A stretch of 64,000 nt of DNA from Roseovarius autotrophicus (GTDB taxonomy: Bacteria > Pseudomonadota > Alphaproteobacteria > Rhodobacterales > Rhodobacteraceae), in contig NZ_JAGQDH010000002.1 of assembly GCF_018069895.1 (NCBI RefSeq), positions 1 through 64,000 on the forward strand. The letters are read 5' to 3'. Of the stretch, positions 6,043 through 60,862 are shown piece by piece. The notes under the pieces are model-generated. The model worked only from the letters and a program-made list of their open reading frames with translations, had not been told where the DNA came from and did not search any database. Position numbers and translations under genes: made by a program. The stretch's first letter is position 1; every line of letters begins with the position of its first letter.

Positions 6043-6774
6043 CTATTTGCCGTCAAGGACCAGAGGCTGCGGCGTGATCACAGGCAGGCCGGGGCCGATT
6101 GTGATGCCTTCTCGCGTGATAGTCGCGCGATATGACAGGGTCATGACCCCGGCGGCGTGGGCGTGGGCCAGCGCCCGCGTATAGGCGGGGTCGATATCAG
6201 CGGCGACTGTCACGGCCCCGGCATCGCTGCGCTGCACGAGGTAGAAAAGCACAGCGCGCGCGCCCGATCGCGCCACCGCCGCCAGATCGTGCAGGTGGCG
6301 CGCGCCGCGCGCGGTCACGCTGTCCGGAAACTCGGCAAGGCCCGGCTGGCGCGAGAGGGTGACGGATTTCACCTCGACATAGGCCGCGGGCAGGCCGTTG
6401 CCCGAGAGCAGGAAATCCACCCGGCTCTTCTCGCCATAGCGTTGCTCGGGGCGGATCGTGTCATACTCGGCCAGTTCGGGGATCGTGCGGGTGACAAGTG
6501 CTTCGTGCAGCACACGGTTGGCCAGCCCGGTATCGACGCAGACCAGCGCACCCGTCGCCGTCTCGACCAGCCGCCAGCCATAGCGCAGTTTCTTGCGCGG
6601 GTCGTCGTTGCGCTCCACCCATATCCGCGCGCCCGGCTCTGCCAGCCCCATCATCGAGCCGGGATTGGCGCAATGGGCCGTCGCCTCGGTCCCGTCATCG
6701 AGCCGGATATCGGCCAGGAACCGCTTGTAGCGGCGGATAAGCACGGCAGGTATCAGGGGGCTTTGAAAGCGCAT
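6043..6774 (-). CDS. sfsA: SfsA family nuclease / sugar fermentation stimulation protein
   Basis: A 243-aa, full-length SfsA. It has the N-terminal OB-like part with the AHCANPGSM signature (about residues 33-41) and a C-terminal restriction-endonuclease-like core, including the conserved SRVDFLL and YVEVKSVTL segments that supply acidic and Lys residues. E. coli SfsA binds DNA and has nuclease activity; its physiological role is unclear. There is no good ribosome site and TATAGG lies 12-17 bases upstream, so a leaderless mRNA is possible. Confidence 0.93.
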   Translation of the reverse strand: MRFQSPLIPAVLIRRYKRFLADIRLDDGTEATAHCANPGSMMGLAEPGARIWVERNDDPRKKLRYGWRLVETATGALVCVDTGLANRVLHEALVTRTIPELAEYDTIRPEQRYGEKSRVDFLLSGNGLPAAYVEVKSVTLSRQPGLAEFPDSVTARGARHLHDLAAVARSGARAVLFYLVQRSDAGAVTVAADIDPAYTRALAHAHAAGVMTLSYRATITREGITIGPGLPVITPQPLVLDGK

Positions 6775-6819
6775 GGCGCGGGCCTATACCGGGCCATGCC
6801 GCAGATCAAGGAGGCCGTC

Positions 6820-7542
6820 ATGCCCAACCCAACCGCCGCCATGCTTGTCATCGGGGACGAGATTCTGTCAGGGCGCACGCGCGATGCGAACATGCATTAT
6901 CTGGCCGGCGAGTTGACGCGCGCGGGGCTGGACCTGCGCGAGGTGCGTGTGATCTCCGATGACGGCCCGGCCATCGTCGCTGCGGTGCAGGCGCTGAGCG
7001 CCGCCTTTGACGTGGTGTTTACCTCGGGCGGTATCGGTCCCACCCATGACGACATCACCGCCGAGAACGTGGCCGCCGCCTTCGGGCGGCCCATTTCGGT
7101 GCGCGAGGATGCGCGCGCGATCCTCGCCGCGCATTATGCCGCACGCGGGCAGGAGCTGAATGCGGCGCGGCTGCGCATGGCACGCATCCCGGAGGGCGCC
7201 ACGCTCATCGAGAACCCGATCAGCGCCGCGCCGGGTTTCTCCATCGGGAACGTGCATGTTTTGGCGGGGGTGCCGTCGATTTTTCAGGCGATGCTTGCCT
7301 CGGTCCTGCCAGGGATCACCGGCGGCGCGCCGCTTCTGTCGCAAAGCTACGAAATCCGGCGCGGCGAGGGCGATATTGCCACGCCGCTGAGCGATCTGGC
7401 CGCGCGATACCCGGACCTTTCGGTGGGTTCTTATCCGTTCATCCGTGATGGCTGTCACGGAGCGAATATCGTGATCCGGGGGGCTGATGGCGCGCGCGTC
7501 GATGCCGCCATGGCCGAGCTTGCCGGGATGTTTCCCGCATGA
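6820..7542 (+). CDS. CinA/MoaB-like molybdopterin-binding domain protein
   Basis: A 240-aa protein of the MoCF_biosynth (MogA/CinA N-terminal) fold. It has VIGDEILSGRT at the start and the TSGGIGPTHDDIT signature near residue 70. It lacks the C-terminal nicotinamide-nucleotide amidase domain of full CinA, so this is the short 'competence/damage-inducible' family, whose substrate is uncertain. The start at 6820 follows AAGGAGG with 5-base spacing. It is divergent from sfsA, with 45 bases between starts, and overlaps the next gene by four bases. Confidence 0.85.
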   Translation: MPNPTAAMLVIGDEILSGRTRDANMHYLAGELTRAGLDLREVRVISDDGPAIVAAVQALSAAFDVVFTSGGIGPTHDDITAENVAAAFGRPISVREDARAILAAHYAARGQELNAARLRMARIPEGATLIENPISAAPGFSIGNVHVLAGVPSIFQAMLASVLPGITGGAPLLSQSYEIRRGEGDIATPLSDLAARYPDLSVGSYPFIRDGCHGANIVIRGADGARVDAAMAELAGMFPA

Positions 7543-29701: not shown

Positions 29702-30592
29702 ATGCAATTGTCCGAGGAGATCGACCTGACGGGCTATCTGATCGCGCCCGACCCGTGCGCGGCGCGACTGACGCGCGTGGTGGAGGGAATGGACCATGCG
29801 GGCCGTCGCGCCACGATTTCGGTGGTGGAGGAGCGTCCTCTCACGATCTTTCTCAACGCGCAGGAGATCGTGACGGCGATGACCATCGGCGATTACCCCG
29901 AGTATCTTGCGCTCGGGTTTCTGCGCAATCAGGGGATGCTGGCCGAGGGCGAGCGTGTTCTGGGTGTCGATTACGACGAAGAACTGGAAACGGTCGTGGT
30001 GCGCACCGACGGACGAACCACCTACGAGGAGAAGCTGAAGAAGAAGACCCGCACCAGCGGTTGCGCCGTGGGCACGGTCTTTGGCGACATGATGGAGGGG
30101 CTGGAGGGGGTGACGCTGCCCGAAGTCGAGGTGAGAACCTCGCAGCTTTATGCGCTGGCAGCGAAGATCAACCGCACGCCCTCGCTGTATCTGGAGGCAG
30201 GCGCGATCCATGGCACGGTGCTCTGTCAGGGGGCGCTGCCGCTGGTCTACATGGAGGATGTGGGCCGGCATAATGCTGTGGACAAGATCGCGGGCTGGAT
30301 GCTCAGTGAGGGCGTGAGCGCGGGCGACAAGCTGCTCTACACCACCGGGCGGCTCACGTCGGAGATGGTGATCAAGACGGCGATGATGGGCATTCCGGTG
30401 CTGGCCTCGCGCTCGGGCTTTACCGCCTGGGGGGTGGAGATTGCGCAGGCCGTGGGGTTGACGCTGATCGGGCGGCTGCGCGGGCGGCGGTTCGTCTGTC
30501 TGAGCGGCGAGGAGCGCCTTGTGCGCGACGCCGACCCCGAGAGCGTGGGCGAGGAAGACAGCAAGCACCGCCGCAAGAGTGCCCGCGAATGA
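29702..30592 (+). CDS. fdhD: Formate dehydrogenase accessory sulfurtransferase FdhD
   Basis: 296 aa, FdhD fold, with TRTSGCAVGT carrying the conserved persulfide-forming Cys (about residue 120) and MEDVGRHNAVDKI and TTGRLTSEMV downstream. FdhD sulfurates the molybdenum bis-MGD cofactor before its insertion into formate dehydrogenase. Only one Cys is present where E. coli has CxxC. It starts a coupled run fdhD-mobA-mobB-moeA. No formate dehydrogenase structural gene is in the window. Confidence 0.94.
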   Translation: MQLSEEIDLTGYLIAPDPCAARLTRVVEGMDHAGRRATISVVEERPLTIFLNAQEIVTAMTIGDYPEYLALGFLRNQGMLAEGERVLGVDYDEELETVVVRTDGRTTYEEKLKKKTRTSGCAVGTVFGDMMEGLEGVTLPEVEVRTSQLYALAAKINRTPSLYLEAGAIHGTVLCQGALPLVYMEDVGRHNAVDKIAGWMLSEGVSAGDKLLYTTGRLTSEMVIKTAMMGIPVLASRSGFTAWGVEIAQAVGLTLIGRLRGRRFVCLSGEERLVRDADPESVGEEDSKHRRKSARE

Positions 30593-31221
30593 GCGCGCCG
30601 CTTGGGGTGATCCTTGCCGGTGGGCAGGCGACAAGGATGGGTGGGGGCGACAAGGGGCTGCTGGCGCTCGGGGATGGGGTGATCCTCGATCACGTCATCG
30701 CGCGGTTTGCCCCGCAGGTGGGGGCGCTCGCGCTCAATGCCAATGGCGATCCGGCGCGGTTCGCCCGCTTCGGCCTGCCGGTGCTGGCCGACCCGCTGCC
30801 GGGCTATCCCGGTCCGCTGGTGGGGGTGCTGGCGGGGCTTGACTGGGCGGCGGGGCAGGGGGCCGAGGCCATCGTGAGCGTCGCCGCCGACACGCCGTTC
30901 TTTCCCTGCGATCTGGTGCCGCGTCTGCAACTGGCCGCCGAGGGGATGGCGCATCCGCTGGTTCTGGCCGCCACGCCGCGCGGGGTGGCGGCGACCAGAT
31001 CCATGAGCCGGGGCGGCCATGTGCGCCACCCCACCTTCGGCCTCTGGCCCGTTGCGTTGCGCCATGATCTGCGCGCGGCGCTTGAAGGGGGATTGCGCAA
31101 GGTGGTGCTCTGGACCGAAAAACAGGGCGGGCGCGAGGCGCTTTTCGACGAGACGGACGCATTTTTCAACGTCAACACGCCCGAGGATCTGGCCCTCGCG
31201 CAGCGGAGGGCGGGAGCATGA
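30589..31221 (+). CDS. mobA: Molybdenum cofactor guanylyltransferase MobA
   Basis: 210 aa. It has nucleotidyltransferase motif LAGGQATRMGGGDKG (about 8-22), Asp-containing VSVAADTPFF and the C-terminal FFNVNTPEDL. It transfers GMP to molybdopterin to form MGD. ATGA overlap with fdhD and ATGA overlap with mobB indicate coupled translation. Confidence 0.95.
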   Translation: MSAPLGVILAGGQATRMGGGDKGLLALGDGVILDHVIARFAPQVGALALNANGDPARFARFGLPVLADPLPGYPGPLVGVLAGLDWAAGQGAEAIVSVAADTPFFPCDLVPRLQLAAEGMAHPLVLAATPRGVAATRSMSRGGHVRHPTFGLWPVALRHDLRAALEGGLRKVVLWTEKQGGREALFDETDAFFNVNTPEDLALAQRRAGA

Positions 31222-31709
31222 GGCTCTATGGTGTGACCGGCTGGAAGAACGCGGGCAAGACCGGGCTGATGGAGCGGCTGGTGGCGGAGATGACGGCGCG
31301 GGGGCTGAGGGTCTCGACCGTCAAGCACGCGCATCACAGCTTTGACGTGGATCAGCCGGGGCGCGACAGCTATCGCCATCGTGTGGCGGGGGCGGGCGAG
31401 GTGCTGCTGGCCTCACGGCACCGGCTGGCGCTGATGCGCGAATTGCGGGGACAGGCCGAGCCGACGTTGGCGGAGCTTCTGGCCATGCTTGCGCCTTGCG
31501 ATCTGGTGCTGATCGAGGGCTACAAGCGCGACGGCCACCCCAAGATGGAGGCGTTTCGCGCCGAGACCGGCAATGCGCTGATCGCGCCGGGTGATCCGAC
31601 CATCCGCGCGGTGGCAAGCGACGTGGCCCTCGATCTCGACCGGCCTGTGTTTGATCTCAACGACACCCGTGCGATTGCCGATTTCATATTGGGAGAGGTG
31701 GGGCTGTGA
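31218..31709 (+). CDS. mobB: Molybdopterin-guanine dinucleotide biosynthesis protein MobB
   Basis: A 163-aa P-loop GTPase. It has Walker A GWKNAGKTGLM (about 6-16), KHAHHSFDVD and LVLIEGYKRD. It assists MobA in MGD formation. Its stop overlaps the start of the MoeA fusion gene by four bases. Confidence 0.94.
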   Translation: MRLYGVTGWKNAGKTGLMERLVAEMTARGLRVSTVKHAHHSFDVDQPGRDSYRHRVAGAGEVLLASRHRLALMRELRGQAEPTLAELLAMLAPCDLVLIEGYKRDGHPKMEAFRAETGNALIAPGDPTIRAVASDVALDLDRPVFDLNDTRAIADFILGEVGL

Positions 31710-33814
31710 CCCCATTCGACAGCTTTGCCGTGCTCGACTGGTCGGGCGGCAACGATACCGGCCCGCGCGAGAGGAAGGATGCGATCTGGCTGGGGGTGAT
31801 GCGCGGCGGGCAGGAGGAGGAACCGCGCTACTGTCGCAACCGGGTGGAGGCCGGGGTGGCGCTGATCGCGCTGATCGAGGCGGAGCAGGCGGCGGGGCGG
31901 CGGTTGCTTTTGGGATGCGATTTCCCGTTCGGCTTTCCGGTGGGGTTTGCCGGGGCGCTGACCGGGCGGGCCGATCCCTTCGCGGTCTGGGACTGGCTGG
32001 AGGCCGCCATCAAGGACAGCCCGCGCGCCAACAACCGCTTTGACGTGGCGGGCGCGATCAATGCGCGATTTCCCGGCACGGGGCCGTTCTGGTTCAACGG
32101 TTTGCACCGCGAGATCGACCACCTGCCGCGCCGCGATACGCGGTCGGGCCATGGCCTGCCCGAGCGGCGCGCGGTTGAGGCGGCCTGCAAGGGGGCATTT
32201 GCCTGCTGGCAGATGGGCGGCGCGGGGGCCGTGGGCGGGCAGGTGCTGACCGGGCTTCCGGTGCTGAACCGTCTGCGACGGCGATTCGGCGCGGCGCTGG
32301 CGGTCTGGCCGTTCGAGCCGCTTACCGCGCCGGTGGCGCTTGTGGAGATATGGCCGGGCCTGATCAACCGGGCGGTGAAACGGGCCGAGGCACGGGGCGG
32401 TATCCGCGACGCGCATCAGGTGCGGCTTCTGACCCGCGCGCTGGCGGGATTGCCTGCCGCGCGGCTTGCCGCCATGCTGGCGGTCGATGCGCCCGAGGAG
32501 GGCTGGATTCTGGGCCTTGGACATGAGGAGGCATTGATGGCTGCCTGTGATGACCCGCTCACACCGCCGCCCCTGCGCGACGATTGCTTTGCCTTGCCCG
32601 CCGGGGTGGACTGGACGCCGGTCGATGACGCGCTGGCCATGCTGCGCGCGCGGTTGTCCTGCGTCGTGGGGCAGGAGCGCGTGGCGCTGGGCGCGGCGGC
32701 GGGGCGTGTGCTGGCCGAGGGGCAGCGCGCGCGCCGCGCCAATCCGTCCGAGGCGAATTCGGCGGTGGATGGTTACGGCTTTGCCCATGGCACGCTTGGC
32801 GAGGGCGATCAGGTTGTGCCGCTGGTCGCGGGGCGCGCGGCGGCTGGGGTGCCCTATCCGGGCACGGTGCCGGGGGGCCATGCGGTGCGGGTGCTGACCG
32901 GCGCGGCGTTGCCCGAAGGGGTGGACACCGTGATCCTGCAAGAGGATGTGACGGTTGGTGAAGGGCGCATCGCGTTTCGCGGCGGGCTGAAACGCGGGGC
33001 CAACACGCGGCGCGCGGGCGAGGATGTGGAGAGCGGCGCGACGGTGCTGGAGGTGGGGCGCGTTCTGACGCCGGCCGATCTGGCGCTTTGCGCCGCCGTG
33101 GGGCTGGCCGATCTGCCGGTTTACAGGCGGCTGCGCGTGGCGGTGCTCTCGACCGGGGATGAGGTGGTTGAGCCGGGGGCCGAGGCCGCGCCGGGGCAGA
33201 TATTTGATGCCAACCGGCCCATGCTGCTCGCGCTCGCGCGGCAGATGGGGCACGAGGCGATTGATCTGGGCCGTGTGGCGGATGACCGCGCCGCCCTGCG
33301 CGCAACGCTTGACCGGGGCGCGGGGCAGGCAGATGCGATCCTGACCTCGGGCGGGGCGTCAGCCGGGGATGAGGACCATGTCTCGGCGCTGCTCACCGAG
33401 GCGGGGGCCATGGCCGAATGGCGCATCGCGCTCAAGCCGGGGCGGCCTCTGGCACTCGGGGTCTGGCAGGGCGCGCCGGTCTTCGGCCTGCCGGGCAATC
33501 CAGTGGCCGCCCTGGTCTGCACGCTGATTTTCGCGCGGCCTGCGCTGCGGCTCCTGTCGGGGGCGGGATGGGCCGAGCCGCAGGGGTTCGACGTGCCCGC
33601 CGCTTTCGAAAAGCGCAAGAAACCCGGACGCCGTGAATACCTGCGCGCGCGCATCCGCGAGGGGCGCGTGGAGGTGTTCAAATCCGAAGGTTCGGGCCGC
33701 ATCAGCGGGTTGAGTTGGGCCCAGGGTCTGGTGGAACTACCCGACGCCGCTGTGGAGATCGGCCCCGGCGATCCGGTGCGCTATATCCCCTTTGCGAGCT
33801 TCCTGAACGGCTGA
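31706..33814 (+). CDS. Fusion of DUF429-like RNase H-fold domain with MoeA molybdotransferase
   Basis: 702 aa, nearly twice MoeA length. Residues about 1-285 resemble the DUF429 predicted RNase H-like domain, with VLDWSGG at the start, LLGCDFPFGFP near 70 and VEIWPGL near 215. Residues about 290-702 are complete MoeA: NSAVDGYGF, LTGAALPEGVDTVI, LSTGDEVV, TSGGASAGDEDHV and FGLPGNPVA. MoeA inserts molybdate into adenylylated molybdopterin. There is no internal stop, and the junction lies around residue 288. It is the last gene of fdhD-mobA-mobB-moeA. The role of the N-terminal domain is unknown. Confidence 0.88.
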   Translation: MTPFDSFAVLDWSGGNDTGPRERKDAIWLGVMRGGQEEEPRYCRNRVEAGVALIALIEAEQAAGRRLLLGCDFPFGFPVGFAGALTGRADPFAVWDWLEAAIKDSPRANNRFDVAGAINARFPGTGPFWFNGLHREIDHLPRRDTRSGHGLPERRAVEAACKGAFACWQMGGAGAVGGQVLTGLPVLNRLRRRFGAALAVWPFEPLTAPVALVEIWPGLINRAVKRAEARGGIRDAHQVRLLTRALAGLPAARLAAMLAVDAPEEGWILGLGHEEALMAACDDPLTPPPLRDDCFALPAGVDWTPVDDALAMLRARLSCVVGQERVALGAAAGRVLAEGQRARRANPSEANSAVDGYGFAHGTLGEGDQVVPLVAGRAAAGVPYPGTVPGGHAVRVLTGAALPEGVDTVILQEDVTVGEGRIAFRGGLKRGANTRRAGEDVESGATVLEVGRVLTPADLALCAAVGLADLPVYRRLRVAVLSTGDEVVEPGAEAAPGQIFDANRPMLLALARQMGHEAIDLGRVADDRAALRATLDRGAGQADAILTSGGASAGDEDHVSALLTEAGAMAEWRIALKPGRPLALGVWQGAPVFGLPGNPVAALVCTLIFARPALRLLSGAGWAEPQGFDVPAAFEKRKKPGRREYLRARIREGRVEVFKSEGSGRISGLSWAQGLVELPDAAVEIGPGDPVRYIPFASFLNG

Positions 33815-33912: not shown

Positions 33913-34677
33913 TTATGGTGTGGCCACATTGACGCCTGTGCCCCACTCCTTGCAGCGCGCGGCCAGAGACGCGGGCAGGGGCGCGTCGGTAAAGACGTGG
34001 TCCACGTCGCGCAGCGATCCGATGCGCACCGGCGCGCTGCGCTGGAACTTGGAGGCGTCGGCCACAAGAATCACCTCGCGTGAGCGTTTGAGGAGGGTCT
34101 GGCCCACCAGCACCTCCTGAATGTCGAAATCGAGCATGTCGCCGTCCTCATCAAGCGCCGAACAGCCGAGAATGGCGTGGTCGAACTTGAAATTCTCGAT
34201 GGCGCGCGCGGTCAGGTGCCCCACCAGCCCGTTATCCGAGCGCCGGAGCGCGCCGCCCGCCAGCACGATCTCGCAATCGGGATTGGCCAGAAGGATGTGT
34301 GCCACGTTCATGTTGTTGGTCACCACCATCAGGTTGCGGTGGTCGATGAGCGCCTGCGCCACCGCCTCGGTGGTGGTGCCGATGTCGAGGAAGATCGAGC
34401 AATCCTCGGGGATGGCCGCCGCGCAGGCCCGCCCGATGGCGGTCTTGGCGGGCTCGTTCAGGCGGCGGCGCTCCTCGTATATGATGTTGGTCACGCCCGA
34501 GGGCAGGATCGCGCCGCCATGCACGCGCTCGAGCTTGCCCGCGTTGGCCAGTTCCGTGAGGTCGCGGCGGATGGTCTGCACGGTGACGTTGAAGCGTTCG
34601 GCAAGATCCTCGACCATGACCTTGCCCTCGGCGCGGGCGATCTCGAGGATGTCGGGCTGGCGAAAGGTCTGGGACAT
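33913..34677 (-). CDS. glpR: DeoR-family glycerol regulon repressor GlpR
   Basis: 254 aa. An N-terminal winged HTH with the DeoR signature (VEDLAERFNVTVQTIRRDL split over about 22-41) precedes a DeoRC sugar-phosphate sensor domain with FLDIGTTTEA and LAGGALRR. DeoR proteins of this type bind glycerol-3-phosphate and repress glp genes. It is transcribed away from glpD with a shared intergenic region, so autoregulation together with glpD is likely. Confidence 0.92.
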   Translation of the reverse strand: MSQTFRQPDILEIARAEGKVMVEDLAERFNVTVQTIRRDLTELANAGKLERVHGGAILPSGVTNIIYEERRRLNEPAKTAIGRACAAAIPEDCSIFLDIGTTTEAVAQALIDHRNLMVVTNNMNVAHILLANPDCEIVLAGGALRRSDNGLVGHLTARAIENFKFDHAILGCSALDEDGDMLDFDIQEVLVGQTLLKRSREVILVADASKFQRSAPVRIGSLRDVDHVFTDAPLPASLAARCKEWGTGVNVATP

Positions 34678-34689
34678 GGCGGGCCTGTA

Positions 34690-34925
34690 TCGATTTCGTG
34701 TTCGATTATGTTCGGTTTCGCGCCATGTGCAAGCGCTAGTGCGCGATTCGGGTCATTTTGCGTCGTTTTGCGCAGCGTTGCCTTTGCGATCCTTGCGGAG
34801 GGATGCGTTTTTCTCTGCGTGCAAGGTAAAAAAGCTATCCATTTGCGATTATCATGTGAAAAGGAAATTAAACGAACATTCGTTCTTGACTGAGGGGTGA
34901 AAAAGATGCTTCGTTTTCGTTCACG
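34690..34925. promoter_or_regulatory. glpR-glpD divergent control region with candidate GlpR sites
   Basis: The region is AT-richer than its neighbours. It holds clustered TTCG half-sites (TTTCGTGTTCG and ATGTTCGGTTTCG, about 34693-34720), a perfect inverted repeat AACGAA-CA-TTCGTT (34871-34884), and tandem TTCGTTTTCGTT (34910-34921). TTCG-type repeats are usual DeoR-family operators and resemble the GlpR half-site TGTTCG. Binding is inferred. Confidence 0.55.
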
Positions 34926-34947
34926 GGATCAGGGAGGGGATCGCATC

Positions 34948-36543
34948 GTGGATTGCGCCGAGGGCGATATGGTCGATCTTTTCGTGATCGGCGGTGGCAT
35001 CAACGGATGCGGCATCGCGCGCGACGCGGCGGGGCGGGGCCTGCGGGTCATGCTTGCCGAGATGGATGATCTGGCCTCGGCCACCTCATCGGCCTCGACC
35101 AAGCTGTTTCATGGCGGACTGCGCTATCTGGAGTATTTCGAATTCCGCCTCGTGCATGAGGCGCTGGTGGAGCGCGAGGTGTTGTTGCGCGCGATGCCGC
35201 ATATCTCGTGGCCGATGCGGTTCGTGCTGCCCTATCACCGCGACATGCGGTTCGAGGCCGAGACACCGACCTCGCGGCTTTTGTCATTGGTCTTGCCGTG
35301 GATGCGGGGGCGCAGGCCCGCCTGGCTGATCCGGCTGGGCCTGTTCCTTTATGACAACATGGGCGGGCGCCGGATCCTGCCTGGGACGCGCACGATCAAT
35401 CTGCGCGGCAGCCCCGAGGGCGCGCCTCTGAGGGACAAGTTCGCGCGCGCGTTCGAATATTCCGATTGCTGGATCGAGGACAGCCGCCTTGTGGTGCTCA
35501 ATGCCCGCGACGCCGAGGAGCGCGGGGCGGTGATCCGCACCCGCACCCGCGTGGTGGCCGCCGAGCGCGCGGGCGATGTCTGGAAGGTGACGCTGGAGGC
35601 AGGCGGCGCGCGCGAGGTGGTCGCGGCGCGCGCTTTGGTGAATGCGGCGGGTCCATGGGTGCGCGACGTGATTGGGGGTGTGCTGCGGCTTAATTCCACC
35701 GAAGGGGTGCGGCTGGTGCGCGGCAGCCATATCGTTACCCGCAAGCTCTATGACCACGACAAATGCTATTTCTTTCAGGGCGGTGACGGGCGGATCATCT
35801 TTGCCATTCCCTATGAGGGGGAATTCACCCTGATCGGCACGACGGATGCCGAACACGACAGCGCCGACGCGCGTCCCGAATGCACGCCCGAGGAGGCGGT
35901 CTATCTGTGCCGCTTTGCCAGCGAGTATTTCAAGCGTCCGGTGACCGAGGCCGATATCGTCTGGACCTATTCCGGCGTGCGCCCGCTTTATGATGACGGG
36001 GCGAAATCGGCGACGGCGGCGACGCGCGACTATGTGCTGTCGCTCGACGAAGCGGGCGCACCGCTGCTCAATGTCTTTGGCGGCAAGATCACCACCTACC
36101 GGCGGCTGGCCGAGGCGGCGATGGCGCGGCTTGCGCCGCATTTCCCGCGCGCGGGCGGGAACTGGACGGCGGGCGTGGCGCTGCCGGGGGGGGATTTCGC
36201 CGTTGACGGGTTCGGGGCGCTGGTGGACAGTCTGCGGCAGGACTATCCGTTCCTGTCGGAGGCGCATGCCCGGCGGCTGGTGCGTGCCTATGGCACGGAG
36301 GCGGCGGAGATCATGGGCGGGGCAAGGTCGGCGGAGGATCTTGGCCGCGATTTCGGCGCGACGCTGACCGAGGCGGAGGTGCGCTGGCAGATGGCGCATG
36401 AATATGCGCGCGAGGCGGCGGATGTGCTCTGGCGGCGTACGCGGCTGGGTCTCAGGATGACAGGAACCGAAATCGCCGTGCTGGACGACTGGATGCGCGC
36501 TGCACGCGCGGAGAAGGCCGAGGAAGGGAGGGCCGGGGCGTGA
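34948..36543 (+). CDS. glpD: Glycerol-3-phosphate dehydrogenase, aerobic
   Basis: About 531 aa. The N-terminal FAD dinucleotide fold is FVIGGGINGCGIARDAAGRG (about residues 11-30); SSASTKLFHGGLRYLE, GSHIVTRKLYDHD and FGGKITTYRRLAE follow, with a helical C-terminal cap. It oxidises glycerol-3-phosphate to DHAP and passes electrons to quinone at the inner membrane. The GTG at 34948 has AGGGAGGGG eight bases upstream; ATGs at 34906 and 34969 are alternatives. The stop overlaps glpS (GTGA). Confidence 0.93.
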   Translation: MDCAEGDMVDLFVIGGGINGCGIARDAAGRGLRVMLAEMDDLASATSSASTKLFHGGLRYLEYFEFRLVHEALVEREVLLRAMPHISWPMRFVLPYHRDMRFEAETPTSRLLSLVLPWMRGRRPAWLIRLGLFLYDNMGGRRILPGTRTINLRGSPEGAPLRDKFARAFEYSDCWIEDSRLVVLNARDAEERGAVIRTRTRVVAAERAGDVWKVTLEAGGAREVVAARALVNAAGPWVRDVIGGVLRLNSTEGVRLVRGSHIVTRKLYDHDKCYFFQGGDGRIIFAIPYEGEFTLIGTTDAEHDSADARPECTPEEAVYLCRFASEYFKRPVTEADIVWTYSGVRPLYDDGAKSATAATRDYVLSLDEAGAPLLNVFGGKITTYRRLAEAAMARLAPHFPRAGGNWTAGVALPGGDFAVDGFGALVDSLRQDYPFLSEAHARRLVRAYGTEAAEIMGGARSAEDLGRDFGATLTEAEVRWQMAHEYAREAADVLWRRTRLGLRMTGTEIAVLDDWMRAARAEKAEEGRAGA

Positions 36544-37628
36544 CGCTGACACTTGATGGGGTTTCCAAGGTGGTGAACGGTCAGGTGCATATCCACCCGA
36601 CCGAGCTGACGTTTGCGCCCGGCACAATGAACGTGCTTCTGGGGCCGACCCTTGCGGGCAAGACCTCGCTCATGCGGTTGATGGCGGGGCTGGATGTGCC
36701 TGCGACCGGGCGCATCCTGTGGCAGGGGACGGATGTGACCGGGATGCGGGTCCAGGATCGCGCGGTGGCGATGGTCTATCAGCAATTCATCAACTATCCC
36801 TCGATGAGCGTTTACGACAACATCGCCTCGCCCTTGCGGCTTCAGGGCAAGTCGCGCACCGAGATCGACCGGGCGGTGCAGGAAACCGCCGCGATGATGA
36901 AATTGACGCCGATGCTGGCGCGAAAGCCGCTGGAGCTGTCGGGCGGGCAGCAACAGCGCTGCGCGCTGGCGCGCGCGCTGGTCAAGGGGGCGGGGCTGGT
37001 GTTGCTGGATGAGCCGCTGGCCAATCTCGATTACAAGCTGCGCGAGGAGTTGCGCCTTGAGATCCCGCGCATCTTCGAGGCTGCGGGCAGCATTTTCGTC
37101 TATGCCACCACCGAACCCGAGGAGGCGCTCTTGCTGGGCGGCAACACCGCGACGCTCTGGGAGGGGCGGGTGACGCAGTTCGGCCCCACGCCGCAGGTTT
37201 ACCGGCAGCCGAAGGACGCCACCACCGCGCGCGTGTTCAGCGATCCGCCGATGAATTTCCTCGCCGTGACCAAGGCAGGGGACAGCATAGGCTTTGGCGC
37301 CGGGCAAAAGGCCCCGGCGATCGGCAGTCTCGCGGGGCTTGCCGATGGCCGTTATCTTGCCGGGTTCCGGCCCAATCATCTGGAGATCGACCGCCCCGAA
37401 GGCGCGGCGATGGCGTTCGAGGCACGGCTGAAAGTGACCGAGATCACCGGGTCCGAGACTTTCGTGCATCTCGACCACCATGGCGAGCGGTGGGTGGGCC
37501 TTATCCACGGGGTGCGCGATCTGGAGCTTGGGGCGGAGTTGCGGGTCTGGCTTGATCCGGCGCATGTCTATGTGTTTTCGACCGATGGCGCGCTGGTGGC
37601 CCCTGCCGCCTATGCGCTGGCGGCCTGA
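36540..37628 (+). CDS. glpS: Glycerol ABC transporter ATP-binding protein GlpS
   Basis: 362 aa, CUT1/MalK-like. It has Walker A GPTLAGKTS (35-43), a Q-loop around VYQQF (79-83), signature LSGGQQQR (133-140), Walker B LVLLDEP (153-159) and a C-terminal TOBE/OB domain. The H-loop His is replaced: VYATTEP puts Thr191 where VxVTHD has His. It powers glycerol import with GlpT, GlpP and GlpQ. The GTG start overlaps glpD. The order matches the Rhizobium glpSTPQUV system. Confidence 0.92.
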   Translation: MTLTLDGVSKVVNGQVHIHPTELTFAPGTMNVLLGPTLAGKTSLMRLMAGLDVPATGRILWQGTDVTGMRVQDRAVAMVYQQFINYPSMSVYDNIASPLRLQGKSRTEIDRAVQETAAMMKLTPMLARKPLELSGGQQQRCALARALVKGAGLVLLDEPLANLDYKLREELRLEIPRIFEAAGSIFVYATTEPEEALLLGGNTATLWEGRVTQFGPTPQVYRQPKDATTARVFSDPPMNFLAVTKAGDSIGFGAGQKAPAIGSLAGLADGRYLAGFRPNHLEIDRPEGAAMAFEARLKVTEITGSETFVHLDHHGERWVGLIHGVRDLELGAELRVWLDPAHVYVFSTDGALVAPAAYALAA

Positions 37629-37637
37629 GGGGGAAAG

Positions 37638-38729
37638 ATGGCGAAGATCACGCTCGACAATCTGGCGCACAGCTATCTGGACAATCCGGCATCGGACGAG
37701 GATTGGGCGCTCAAGGAGATGAACCATGTCTGGGGCGATGGCGAGGCCTATGCGCTTCTGGGGGCCTCGGGCTGCGGCAAGTCCACGCTCTTGAACATCA
37801 TCTCCGGCCTCCTGCGGCCCTCGCGCGGGCGGATCCTGTTTGGCGACACGGACGTGACCGATGCGCCGACGGCGGCGCGCAACATCGCGCAGGTGTTCCA
37901 GTTTCCGGTGGTCTACGACACCATGACCGTGCGCGAGAACCTTGCCTTTCCGCTGCGCAATCGCGGCGCGGAGCCGGGCTATATCGCGACCCGCGTGCAG
38001 GCGATTGCCGCGATGATCGGCATGGAGGCCGAGCTTGACCGCAAGGCGCGCGGCCTGACGGCGGATGCCAAGCAGAAGATCAGCCTCGGGCGCGGGATGG
38101 TGCGCGAGGATGTGAACGCGCTTTTGTTCGACGAGCCGCTGACGGTGATCGACCCGCATATGAAATGGGAGTTGCGCACGCAGTTGAAGGCGCTTCACCA
38201 CCAGTTCGGGCATACCATGATCTATGTGACGCATGACCAGACAGAGGCGCTGACCTTCGCCGACAAGGTGGTGGTGATGCATGAGGGGCGCGTGGTGCAG
38301 ATGGGCACGCCGCAAGAGCTGTTCGAGCGGCCCGAGCATACATTCGTGGGCTATTTCATCGGCTCGCCGGGGATGAACCTGCTGCCCGCCGAAGTCGAGG
38401 GCGCGCGCGCGCGGGTGGCCGGACACGAGGTGGCGCTTGGGGCCGATTACGGGCGACCGACGGGCCGGGTGGAGATCGGCGTGCGGCCCGACTTCGTGAC
38501 GCTCACGCAAGAAGAAGGCCTGCCGGTCACGGTCAGGCGGATCGAGGACGTGGGTCGCCACCGTATTGCGCGGCTCGATGCGGGGGGCCATGCGATCAAC
38601 GCCATCCTGCCCGAGGGCGCGGCGCTGAGCGAGGGGGCGCGCCGCGCGCGCTTTGCCCCCGATGCGGTCAATGTCTATGTCGATGACTGGCGCATCGCGC
38701 CGACACAGGCCCTTGAGGAGGTATCATGA
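37638..38729 (+). CDS. glpT: Glycerol ABC transporter ATP-binding protein GlpT
   Basis: 363 aa. It has Walker A GASGCGKST (42-50), a Q-loop at FQFP (87-90), Walker B LLFDEP (162-167), an H-loop VTHDQ with His199 and a C-terminal TOBE part. The signature motif is lost: LTADAKQK (140-147) stands where LSGGQQQR is expected. It pairs with GlpS, which has the complementary defect. Nine bases follow glpS and 76 bases precede glpP. It is unrelated to the E. coli glycerol-3-phosphate antiporter of the same name. Confidence 0.9.
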   Translation: MAKITLDNLAHSYLDNPASDEDWALKEMNHVWGDGEAYALLGASGCGKSTLLNIISGLLRPSRGRILFGDTDVTDAPTAARNIAQVFQFPVVYDTMTVRENLAFPLRNRGAEPGYIATRVQAIAAMIGMEAELDRKARGLTADAKQKISLGRGMVREDVNALLFDEPLTVIDPHMKWELRTQLKALHHQFGHTMIYVTHDQTEALTFADKVVVMHEGRVVQMGTPQELFERPEHTFVGYFIGSPGMNLLPAEVEGARARVAGHEVALGADYGRPTGRVEIGVRPDFVTLTQEEGLPVTVRRIEDVGRHRIARLDAGGHAINAILPEGAALSEGARRARFAPDAVNVYVDDWRIAPTQALEEVS

Positions 38730-60628: not shown

Positions 60629-60669
60629 GGCCAGTCCTTTGACGGGGGCGCGCACGGGACGGGGATGAG

Positions 60670-60757
60670 AATGCTCCGTTCCCTCCGCCGGTGCGAGCCG
60701 GATCAGGTTCGATGGGTTGGCACGCGCCTCTCAGCCCTTCCGGGCACCCCAACGGAT
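60670..60757 (-). promoter_or_regulatory. TPP (THI element) riboswitch
   Basis: On the minus strand the leader shows the THI-box order: GGGGTGCCC, GGGCTGAGAGG, ACCC, GAACCTGATCCGG, CACCGGCGGAGGGAACGG. It lies about 42 bases before thiZ and would shut down thiZ-tenA-thiX when thiamine pyrophosphate is plentiful. Confidence 0.96.
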
Positions 60758-60862
60758 ACACGCGGTCTATCATCCGGGGCGAGGCGTGGCAAGTTTCGGG
60801 CGCGTGTTCAGCTTTTCTTAAAGAAAGCGTGCCAGCTTGGGCGCGTTGGCGTGGAGAGGCAC

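Follow-up and report, generated by a model that had tools for sequence, protein, structure and literature searches.

The window, the whole stretch of 64,000 nucleotides from Roseovarius autotrophicus that was analysed, carries on its forward strand a unit that begins with fdhD, mobA and mobB and ends with a fusion gene. The fusion gene joins a domain of about 275 residues, here called X, through a flexible linker to a complete MoeA. The features are as follows.

29702..30592, + strand: fdhD, formate dehydrogenase sulfurtransferase/chaperone (Pfam PF02634, 6.6e-73)
30589..31221, + strand: mobA, molybdenum cofactor guanylyltransferase (TIGR02665, 4e-54, over cut-off; Pfam, 8.7e-30)
31218..31709, + strand: mobB, GTP-binding adaptor (PF03205, 1.5e-46; TIGR00176, 1.7e-45)
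31706..33814, + strand: X-moeA fusion gene, 702 aa, GTG start (open frame; architecture recurs in relatives)
31706..32530, + strand: domain X, residues 1-275, predicted RNase H-like (NF011066; AlphaFold2; invariant columns)
32546..32617, + strand: linker, residues 281-304 (modelled with low confidence in the full-length protein)
32618..33811, + strand: MoeA part, residues 305-702 (Pfam; residue survey)

Neighboring genes overlap by 4 nt (fdhD/mobA, mobA/mobB and mobB/X-moeA), and X-moeA is the last gene of the unit. A sequence-only reading of this locus had proposed a single 702-codon frame and a complete MoeA closing an fdhD-mobA-mobB-moeA order. Both proposals are borne out: 31706-33814 (+) is one open frame from GTG to stop, and the gene order follows from Pfam and NCBIfam matches together with the 4-nt overlaps. 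Pfam places the complete MoeA at residues 305-696 (MoeA_N 2e-34, MoCF_biosynth 1.1e-29, MoeA_C 2e-12), and no Pfam family matched N-terminal of residue 305 up to E 1. The three acidic motifs named in that reading are all present in X (VLDWSGG at residues 9-15, CDFPFGFP at 71-78 and VEIWPG at 213-218). The full-length model (pTM 0.59) contains two mostly well-folded parts with a linker of low confidence between them (pLDDT 55 for residues 281-290 and 50 for residues 291-300), and for this reason the model suggests that X is best viewed as a tethered module.

Several other features of the window were recorded. The stretch after the operon (33913-34677, -, and 34897-38729, +) encodes a DeoR-family regulator and a glycerol-3-phosphate-dehydrogenase-like FAD protein (Pfam DAO and DAO_C), together with two ABC ATPase-like frames. 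An open frame at 6157-7542 (+) contains a molybdopterin-binding-type domain (PF00994), and we take it to resemble the CinA/COG1058 family rather than a cofactor enzyme. A TPP riboswitch is found at 60663-60761 (-), 27 kb from X, with 70 bits against a gathering score of 54.3.

A domain search of the first 290 residues gave one useful match, in NCBIfam. Residues 4-279 match positions 167-449 of NF011066 (PRK14495) with 1.9e-66, which covers the whole domain. This entry is named "MobB/unknown domain fusion protein", and its C-terminal domain, of no stated function, is X. PRK14495 fuses X to MobB, whereas the window fuses X to MoeA. Because X is joined to MoeA instead of MobB, the whole-protein score of the window protein (225 bits, from the X part alone) is below the cut-off of 596 and the equivalog is not assigned. 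Fusion of MobB to X is already recorded in NCBIfam without function, and X is otherwise without a Pfam model. We found the MobB-X fusion in three loci, L192 (identified by Pfam and NCBIfam), L197 and L204 (both by BLAST). Searches by sequence of solved structures gave no match to X. A phage or defence origin was rejected, as PHROGs and PADLOC gave no match up to E 1 for the window X and one homologue of the rarA-linked branch described below. In searches of an open-access library no paper was recognisable from its title or the start of its abstract as dealing with X or its MoeA and CbiC fusions, which is a weak negative.

The structure of X was predicted with AlphaFold2 from 69 rows and gave a confident model (pLDDT 95.3, pTM 0.91). 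Its elements (E6-11, E27-33, E41-43, H46-62, E67-71, H176-197, E198-200/E210-214 and H234-248) follow the RNase H-like order b1-b2-b3-aA-b4-aB-b5-aC. Strand 4 is followed by a helical insert, roughly 100 residues long, that carries R111, N119, W129 and R155; extra helices lie within the insert (81-160) and at 217-229. Among the chains that VIA-align ranks highest, the top ones are Spt6, Tex, RuvC, Cas9, Cas12, a terminase nuclease, YqgF/RuvX and relatives. Going by their titles and by what is known of these proteins, 49 of the best 50 rows are RNase H-like, the title of 8qwd not telling. These 50 rows have Z scores of 5.6-7.5 over 113-163 residues with 4-14% identity, and the tool warns that Z below 8 can reflect shared arrangement alone. 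The best Foldseek E value was 0.046; its first row is a protein of actin-like ATPase fold and exopolyphosphatases are among the first rows, so related ASKHA folds compete for X. The RuvC/YqgF/Tex/Spt6 branch provides the best structural matches, from which X differs by the large insert after strand 4. The model thus supports the RNase H-like domain proposed in the sequence-only reading, and since Z is at most 7.5, this fold is likely rather than proven.

Twenty-five columns are invariant among the 69 X rows (the window and 68 loci from named genomes), including D11, R46, D72, R111, N119, R155, Q179, E214, D235 and Q238. The same ten residues are invariant in a set of 23 rows, all but one of which come from other families of the class. 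D11 and D72 thus provide, in both sets, the conserved acidic ends of strands 1 and 4 that mark the superfamily. D11, D72, E214 and D235 may share one pocket with R46, R111 and R155. That the acidic cluster and the three arginines are kept in free-standing copies as well speaks for ligand binding or catalysis.

The domain had been likened to DUF429, and that likeness stands only in part. The spacing of the acidic motifs is similar: an alignment of 13 DUF429 proteins shows, as in X, an Asp ending strand 1, an xDxPxG motif after strand 4 and a later E-x-x-P. Membership in DUF429 did not hold up. Pfam DUF429 (PF04250) gave no match for the window X up to E 1, nor for three other X proteins and seven more distant homologues up to E 10, and DUF429 was without a match in 41 genomes of the order. 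Comparison of profiles by hhalign, with 13 sequences on the DUF429 side, gave probabilities of 3.4% over 45 columns (A1) and 6.6% over 31 columns (A3). X may be a distant cousin of DUF429, yet it is not a member by these tests. Majorek et al. (PMC3985635) grouped DUF429 with RuvC, YqgF, Tex and Spt6 in one superfamily, the conserved residues lying in strands 1 and 4, and predicted DUF429 proteins to be nucleases from the conserved Asp in these strands; no word beginning with "molybd" occurs in the main text of that paper.

By the same reasoning, X could be a true nuclease that trims mRNA or another nucleic acid in a manner tied to cofactor status. In its predicted RNase H-like fold, strands 1 and 4 each bear a conserved Asp, the feature used by Majorek et al. 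(PMC3985635), and a homologous branch adjoins rarA and an RNA pseudouridine synthase gene. In several genomes of the class that branch, which has no Pfam model, is flanked by rarA/mgsA on one side and the pseudouridine synthase gene on the other (L153 and other loci among L142-L159). At L153 the neighbors are rarA/mgsA, an RNA pseudouridine synthase and ATP12, and BLAST clusters of neighbors are rarA-like in 7 loci and pseudouridine-synthase-like in 9. Compared by hhalign, a 15-row alignment of the branch shows clear kinship with X (99.9%, E 5e-37), and sequence searches of solved structures gave the branch two chance-level matches only. As a bridge from X to DUF429 it was rejected, hhalign giving only 5.1% although the E..P and D..DA motifs are in register. 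With the same probes, none of sixteen more distant homologues was near molybdenum or cobalamin genes. Most rows of the branch have a D-H-x-x-D-A-L motif, and X has no counterpart of this helix in the hhalign alignment, which counts against nuclease activity of X. Recurrent fusion to metabolic enzymes would be odd for a nuclease. Near X, no Rfam family reached its gathering score, either in the window or in seven of the cobalamin-linked loci described below; X as a riboswitch-linked RNase was dropped, as no cobalamin or molybdenum riboswitch was found at that score in these eight sources. We consider a nuclease improbable.

To follow the fusion in relatives, loci were collected from named genomes with patterns taken from the window's own X, and the 78 loci obtained therefore lean to close relatives. 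X and MoeA are in one frame in 64 of the 78, including L111, where only a 48-residue remnant of X is left; a few of the 64 (e.g. L074 and L106) end at a contig edge. In nine loci X lies beside a separate moeA, so that both the conserved fusion and the split forms that the sequence-only reading wished to see surveyed exist. Three loci (L034, L058 and L108) have X with mobA/mobB and no assigned moeA, the sequence ending at a contig edge after X; in L108 X is broken into two frames. The remaining two (L102 and L103) have no molybdenum neighbor. FdhD, MobA and MobB are encoded on the strand of X within 5 kb in 75 of the 78 loci. Two frame assignments are odd: in L104 MobB was matched in a 699-codon frame, and in L057 its match is a frame of 234 codons that comes, in the list, after an X-MoeA frame of 968 codons. 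Because the same single frame recurs in 64 loci, and X adjoins moeA as a separate gene in nine, a sequencing error or missed stop as the source of the fusion is ruled out.

Forty further loci of the family Rhodobacteraceae were picked for lower rank or odd frame length, a few of them ending at contig edges. Their molybdenum contexts are 5 X-MoeA fusions, 5 X beside moeA, 3 MobB-X fusions and 15 X with only mobA or mobB; the remainder are 6 X-CbiC fusions, 1 X near cobalamin genes and 5 with neither. In many genomes of the family X is placed between MobB and MoeA, as a free protein or joined to one of the two, an arrangement that is new here. X is present in 176 of 295 family genomes. A single match in 173 of the 176 speaks against a selfish mobile element. 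Among the matches listed, MobB was found in 148 of the 176 X-positive and 72 of the 119 X-negative genomes (leaving 28 genomes with X but no MobB and 47 with neither; Fisher p 1e-5, kinship uncorrected). FdhD was found in 175 of the 176 and 107 of the 119, respectively (both 175, X only 1, FdhD only 107, neither 12; Fisher p 1e-4, kinship uncorrected).

Also new here is a tie to cobalamin: in other genomes X forms one chain with precorrin-8X methylmutase (CbiC/CobH) or is situated among cobalamin genes. The CbiC part was identified by Pfam PF02570 in L193, L195, L196, L162, L178 and L167, and by BLAST in the other X-CbiC fusions. Among 289 genomes of the class, a profile search detected X or a distant relative in 57, and a phylum sample gave a match in 13 of 150, two of them outside the class. 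We examined the 28 strongest places outside the family (E <= 1.1e-42): three are X-CbiC fusions, four have cobalamin genes close by (CbiX, CobL and CbiC in three, CobB alone in one), 20 are near neither pathway and one has fdhD on the other strand. Hence 21 of the 28 lack a same-strand gene of either pathway nearby; as several loci end at contig edges, such counts of absence outside the family are upper bounds. X is linked to molybdenum and cobalamin enzymes alike, and the cobalamin tie, like the existing NCBIfam entry, had been missed in the sequence-only reading. With the same domain joined to enzymes of both pathways, the finding is more interesting than a single fusion.

X is not a constant part of the operon. 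Three relatives (L312, L313 and L314) have lost it and retain fdhD, mobA, mobB and moeA, which indicates that X is not needed for moeA to persist. In two of the three, G735, of the window's genus, and the genome of L111, a Roseovarius by title, a relic of 48-50 residues of X precedes moeA; the third, G742, also of the window's genus, has no X match. We also examined 13 X-less family genomes chosen for a MobB frame of 591-650 codons among the matches listed. In all 13 (L299-L311) MobB is fused directly to MoeA with mobA before it, the sequence of L303 covering only the end of mobA, and fdhD is visible in 11 of the 13 stretches. This architecture is that of NF011060/PRK14491, a MobB-MoeA fusion without X. 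The window MoeA matches PRK14491 with 2.2e-127, below its cut-off (426 versus 532 bits), and the window MobB is a separate protein.

These direct fusions raise the possibility that X has no catalytic activity and works as an adaptor, comparable to the YqgF-type domain in Tex and Spt6, spacing or docking MobB against MoeA and CbiX against CbiC so that labile intermediates would be passed on. X occupies the very place at which MobB and MoeA are joined to each other in the 13 X-less genomes, but these were selected by MobB frame length among the matches listed, so the mutual exclusion of X and direct fusion is partly by construction. Spt6 and Tex head the structural list. Gln238 of X, invariant and three residues after Asp235, also favors an adaptor, as it presumably occupies the place where RuvC has a second Asp. 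A MoeA1-MobB platform has been reported in Methylorubrum extorquens (PMC13197769). On the other hand, free-standing copies with no cofactor gene found nearby also keep the acidic and basic residues without change, and a spacer would not need them. We give an adaptor clearly less than even odds, close behind the helper role discussed below.

The MoeA part itself was compared with M. extorquens MoeA1, a tungstate insertase in which Arg291 and Ala312 have been tied to tungsten preference (PMC13197769). Arg580 and Ala601 of the window protein correspond to these positions, and the spacing of 21 residues agrees. The two proteins have in common the Arg/Ala pair, a MobB partner and fdhD; an X domain, present with the window MoeA, is not mentioned for MoeA1 in the parts of that source consulted (PMC13197769). 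At X loci, all 105 fused and all 23 split MoeA carry the R/A pair, in a survey that counts duplicate loci and drops alignments missing either position. Twenty other MoeA have K/S (13), R/A (6) or K/A (1). Since the pair is shared by every one of the 13 direct MobB-MoeA fusions and by the three relatives from which X has been lost, it marks fdhD-linked MoeA and not X, and a tungsten link as a property of X was rejected. From these residues, the operon may serve a tungsten-capable formate dehydrogenase, which we offer as a lead only. The source genome has three MoeA. A large PF00384 gene on C3 (open frame 1305), which we take to be a nitrate reductase, lies some 6 kb from one of them. X standing in for an adenylating MogA/MoaB was made unlikely by a separate MoCF-domain gene (G000:C44:227880-228296), read by us as presumably MoaB/MogA-like.

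An X tree was built by a quick search from 103 rows (a random sample of 28 named family loci, the other sets and the window); 39 of its 100 inner branches have support under 80. Context labels (molybdenum, cobalamin, none and rarA-type) need 15 changes on this tree. The MoeA fusion needs 9, the CbiC fusion 7 and the MobB fusion 3, of which at least 5, 4 and 2, respectively, fall on starred branches. Shuffled labels need on average 3.0 changes for the MobB fusion and 8.7 for the CbiC fusion, and the small groups with these fusions are thus barely clustered. As gains and losses are indistinguishable on the tree, we claim repeated change and not a number of origins. Such changes bear on the idea that the fusion is an accident of overlapping neighbors, X having an unrelated role and being caught between mobB and moeA. 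The 4-nt overlaps in the unit would ease fusion, moeA survives without X, and 21 of the 28 copies outside the family have no cofactor neighbors. Against an accident, X is joined to three different cofactor enzymes of both pathways with repeated changes on the tree, and in the family it co-occurs with MobB (among the matches listed) and FdhD at the p values given above, uncorrected for kinship. We give an accident the least credence, about as little as a nuclease.

Any account of X starts from what the analysis shows: the fusion, the operon, the conservation, the predicted fold and the recurrent linkage to two cofactor pathways. We tentatively favor, at clearly less than even confidence, the view that X is an auxiliary module, probably one that binds metal, which is tethered to enzymes of cofactor assembly and does the same job in every setting. 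The fusion gene would then encode two independently folded modules on one chain. Its C-terminal MoeA module would be a metal insertase grouped with fdhD-mobA-mobB and, belonging with these genes, would most likely make the bis-MGD cofactor for formate dehydrogenase. The acidic cluster and the three arginines are invariant in molybdenum-linked, cobalamin-linked and free copies, from which we infer binding of a divalent metal and of an anionic ligand by X, with one job throughout. The ligand is, weakly, more apt to be a small nucleotide or phosphate-type compound than nucleic acid. The flexible tether would keep X beside the MobB/MoeA or the CbiX/CbiC step, where it may act as a local helper.

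In favor of this helper role we count the invariant residues, the model with pLDDT 95.3, the 49 RNase H-like rows among the best 50 structural matches, the tethered domains, the fusions to MoeA, MobB and CbiC with their repeated changes on the tree, and the sixteen more distant homologues, none of which adjoins either pathway. Counted against it are the dispensability of X for its MoeA (three losses and 13 direct MobB-MoeA fusions), the 28 of 176 X-positive family genomes without MobB among the matches listed, and the Z scores of 5.6-7.5, which may reflect only shared arrangement. The 21 of 28 copies outside the family without either pathway on the same strand indicate that the link of X to cofactors is not universal. 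The adaptor is nearly as likely as the metal- and ligand-binding helper; a nuclease and an accident are less so.

To our knowledge, no late factor is common to the molybdenum and cobalamin cofactor routes. It is possible, if somewhat less probable than the helper role in itself, that X is a shared helper for late Mo/W bis-MGD and corrin assembly, nearly always encoded once per genome, performing one reaction for both, moving between the two operons and repeatedly becoming fused to the enzyme next to the step at which the metal is handled (MobB/MoeA or CbiX/CbiC). Should X have no part in these pathways, its repeated fusions would still be a puzzle of genome organisation. If X does act in both pathways, the two cofactor routes would share a late factor. 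This would give a handle on why some formate dehydrogenases need MobB and dedicated MoeA copies, and a testable function for an alphaproteobacterial protein family without a Pfam match.
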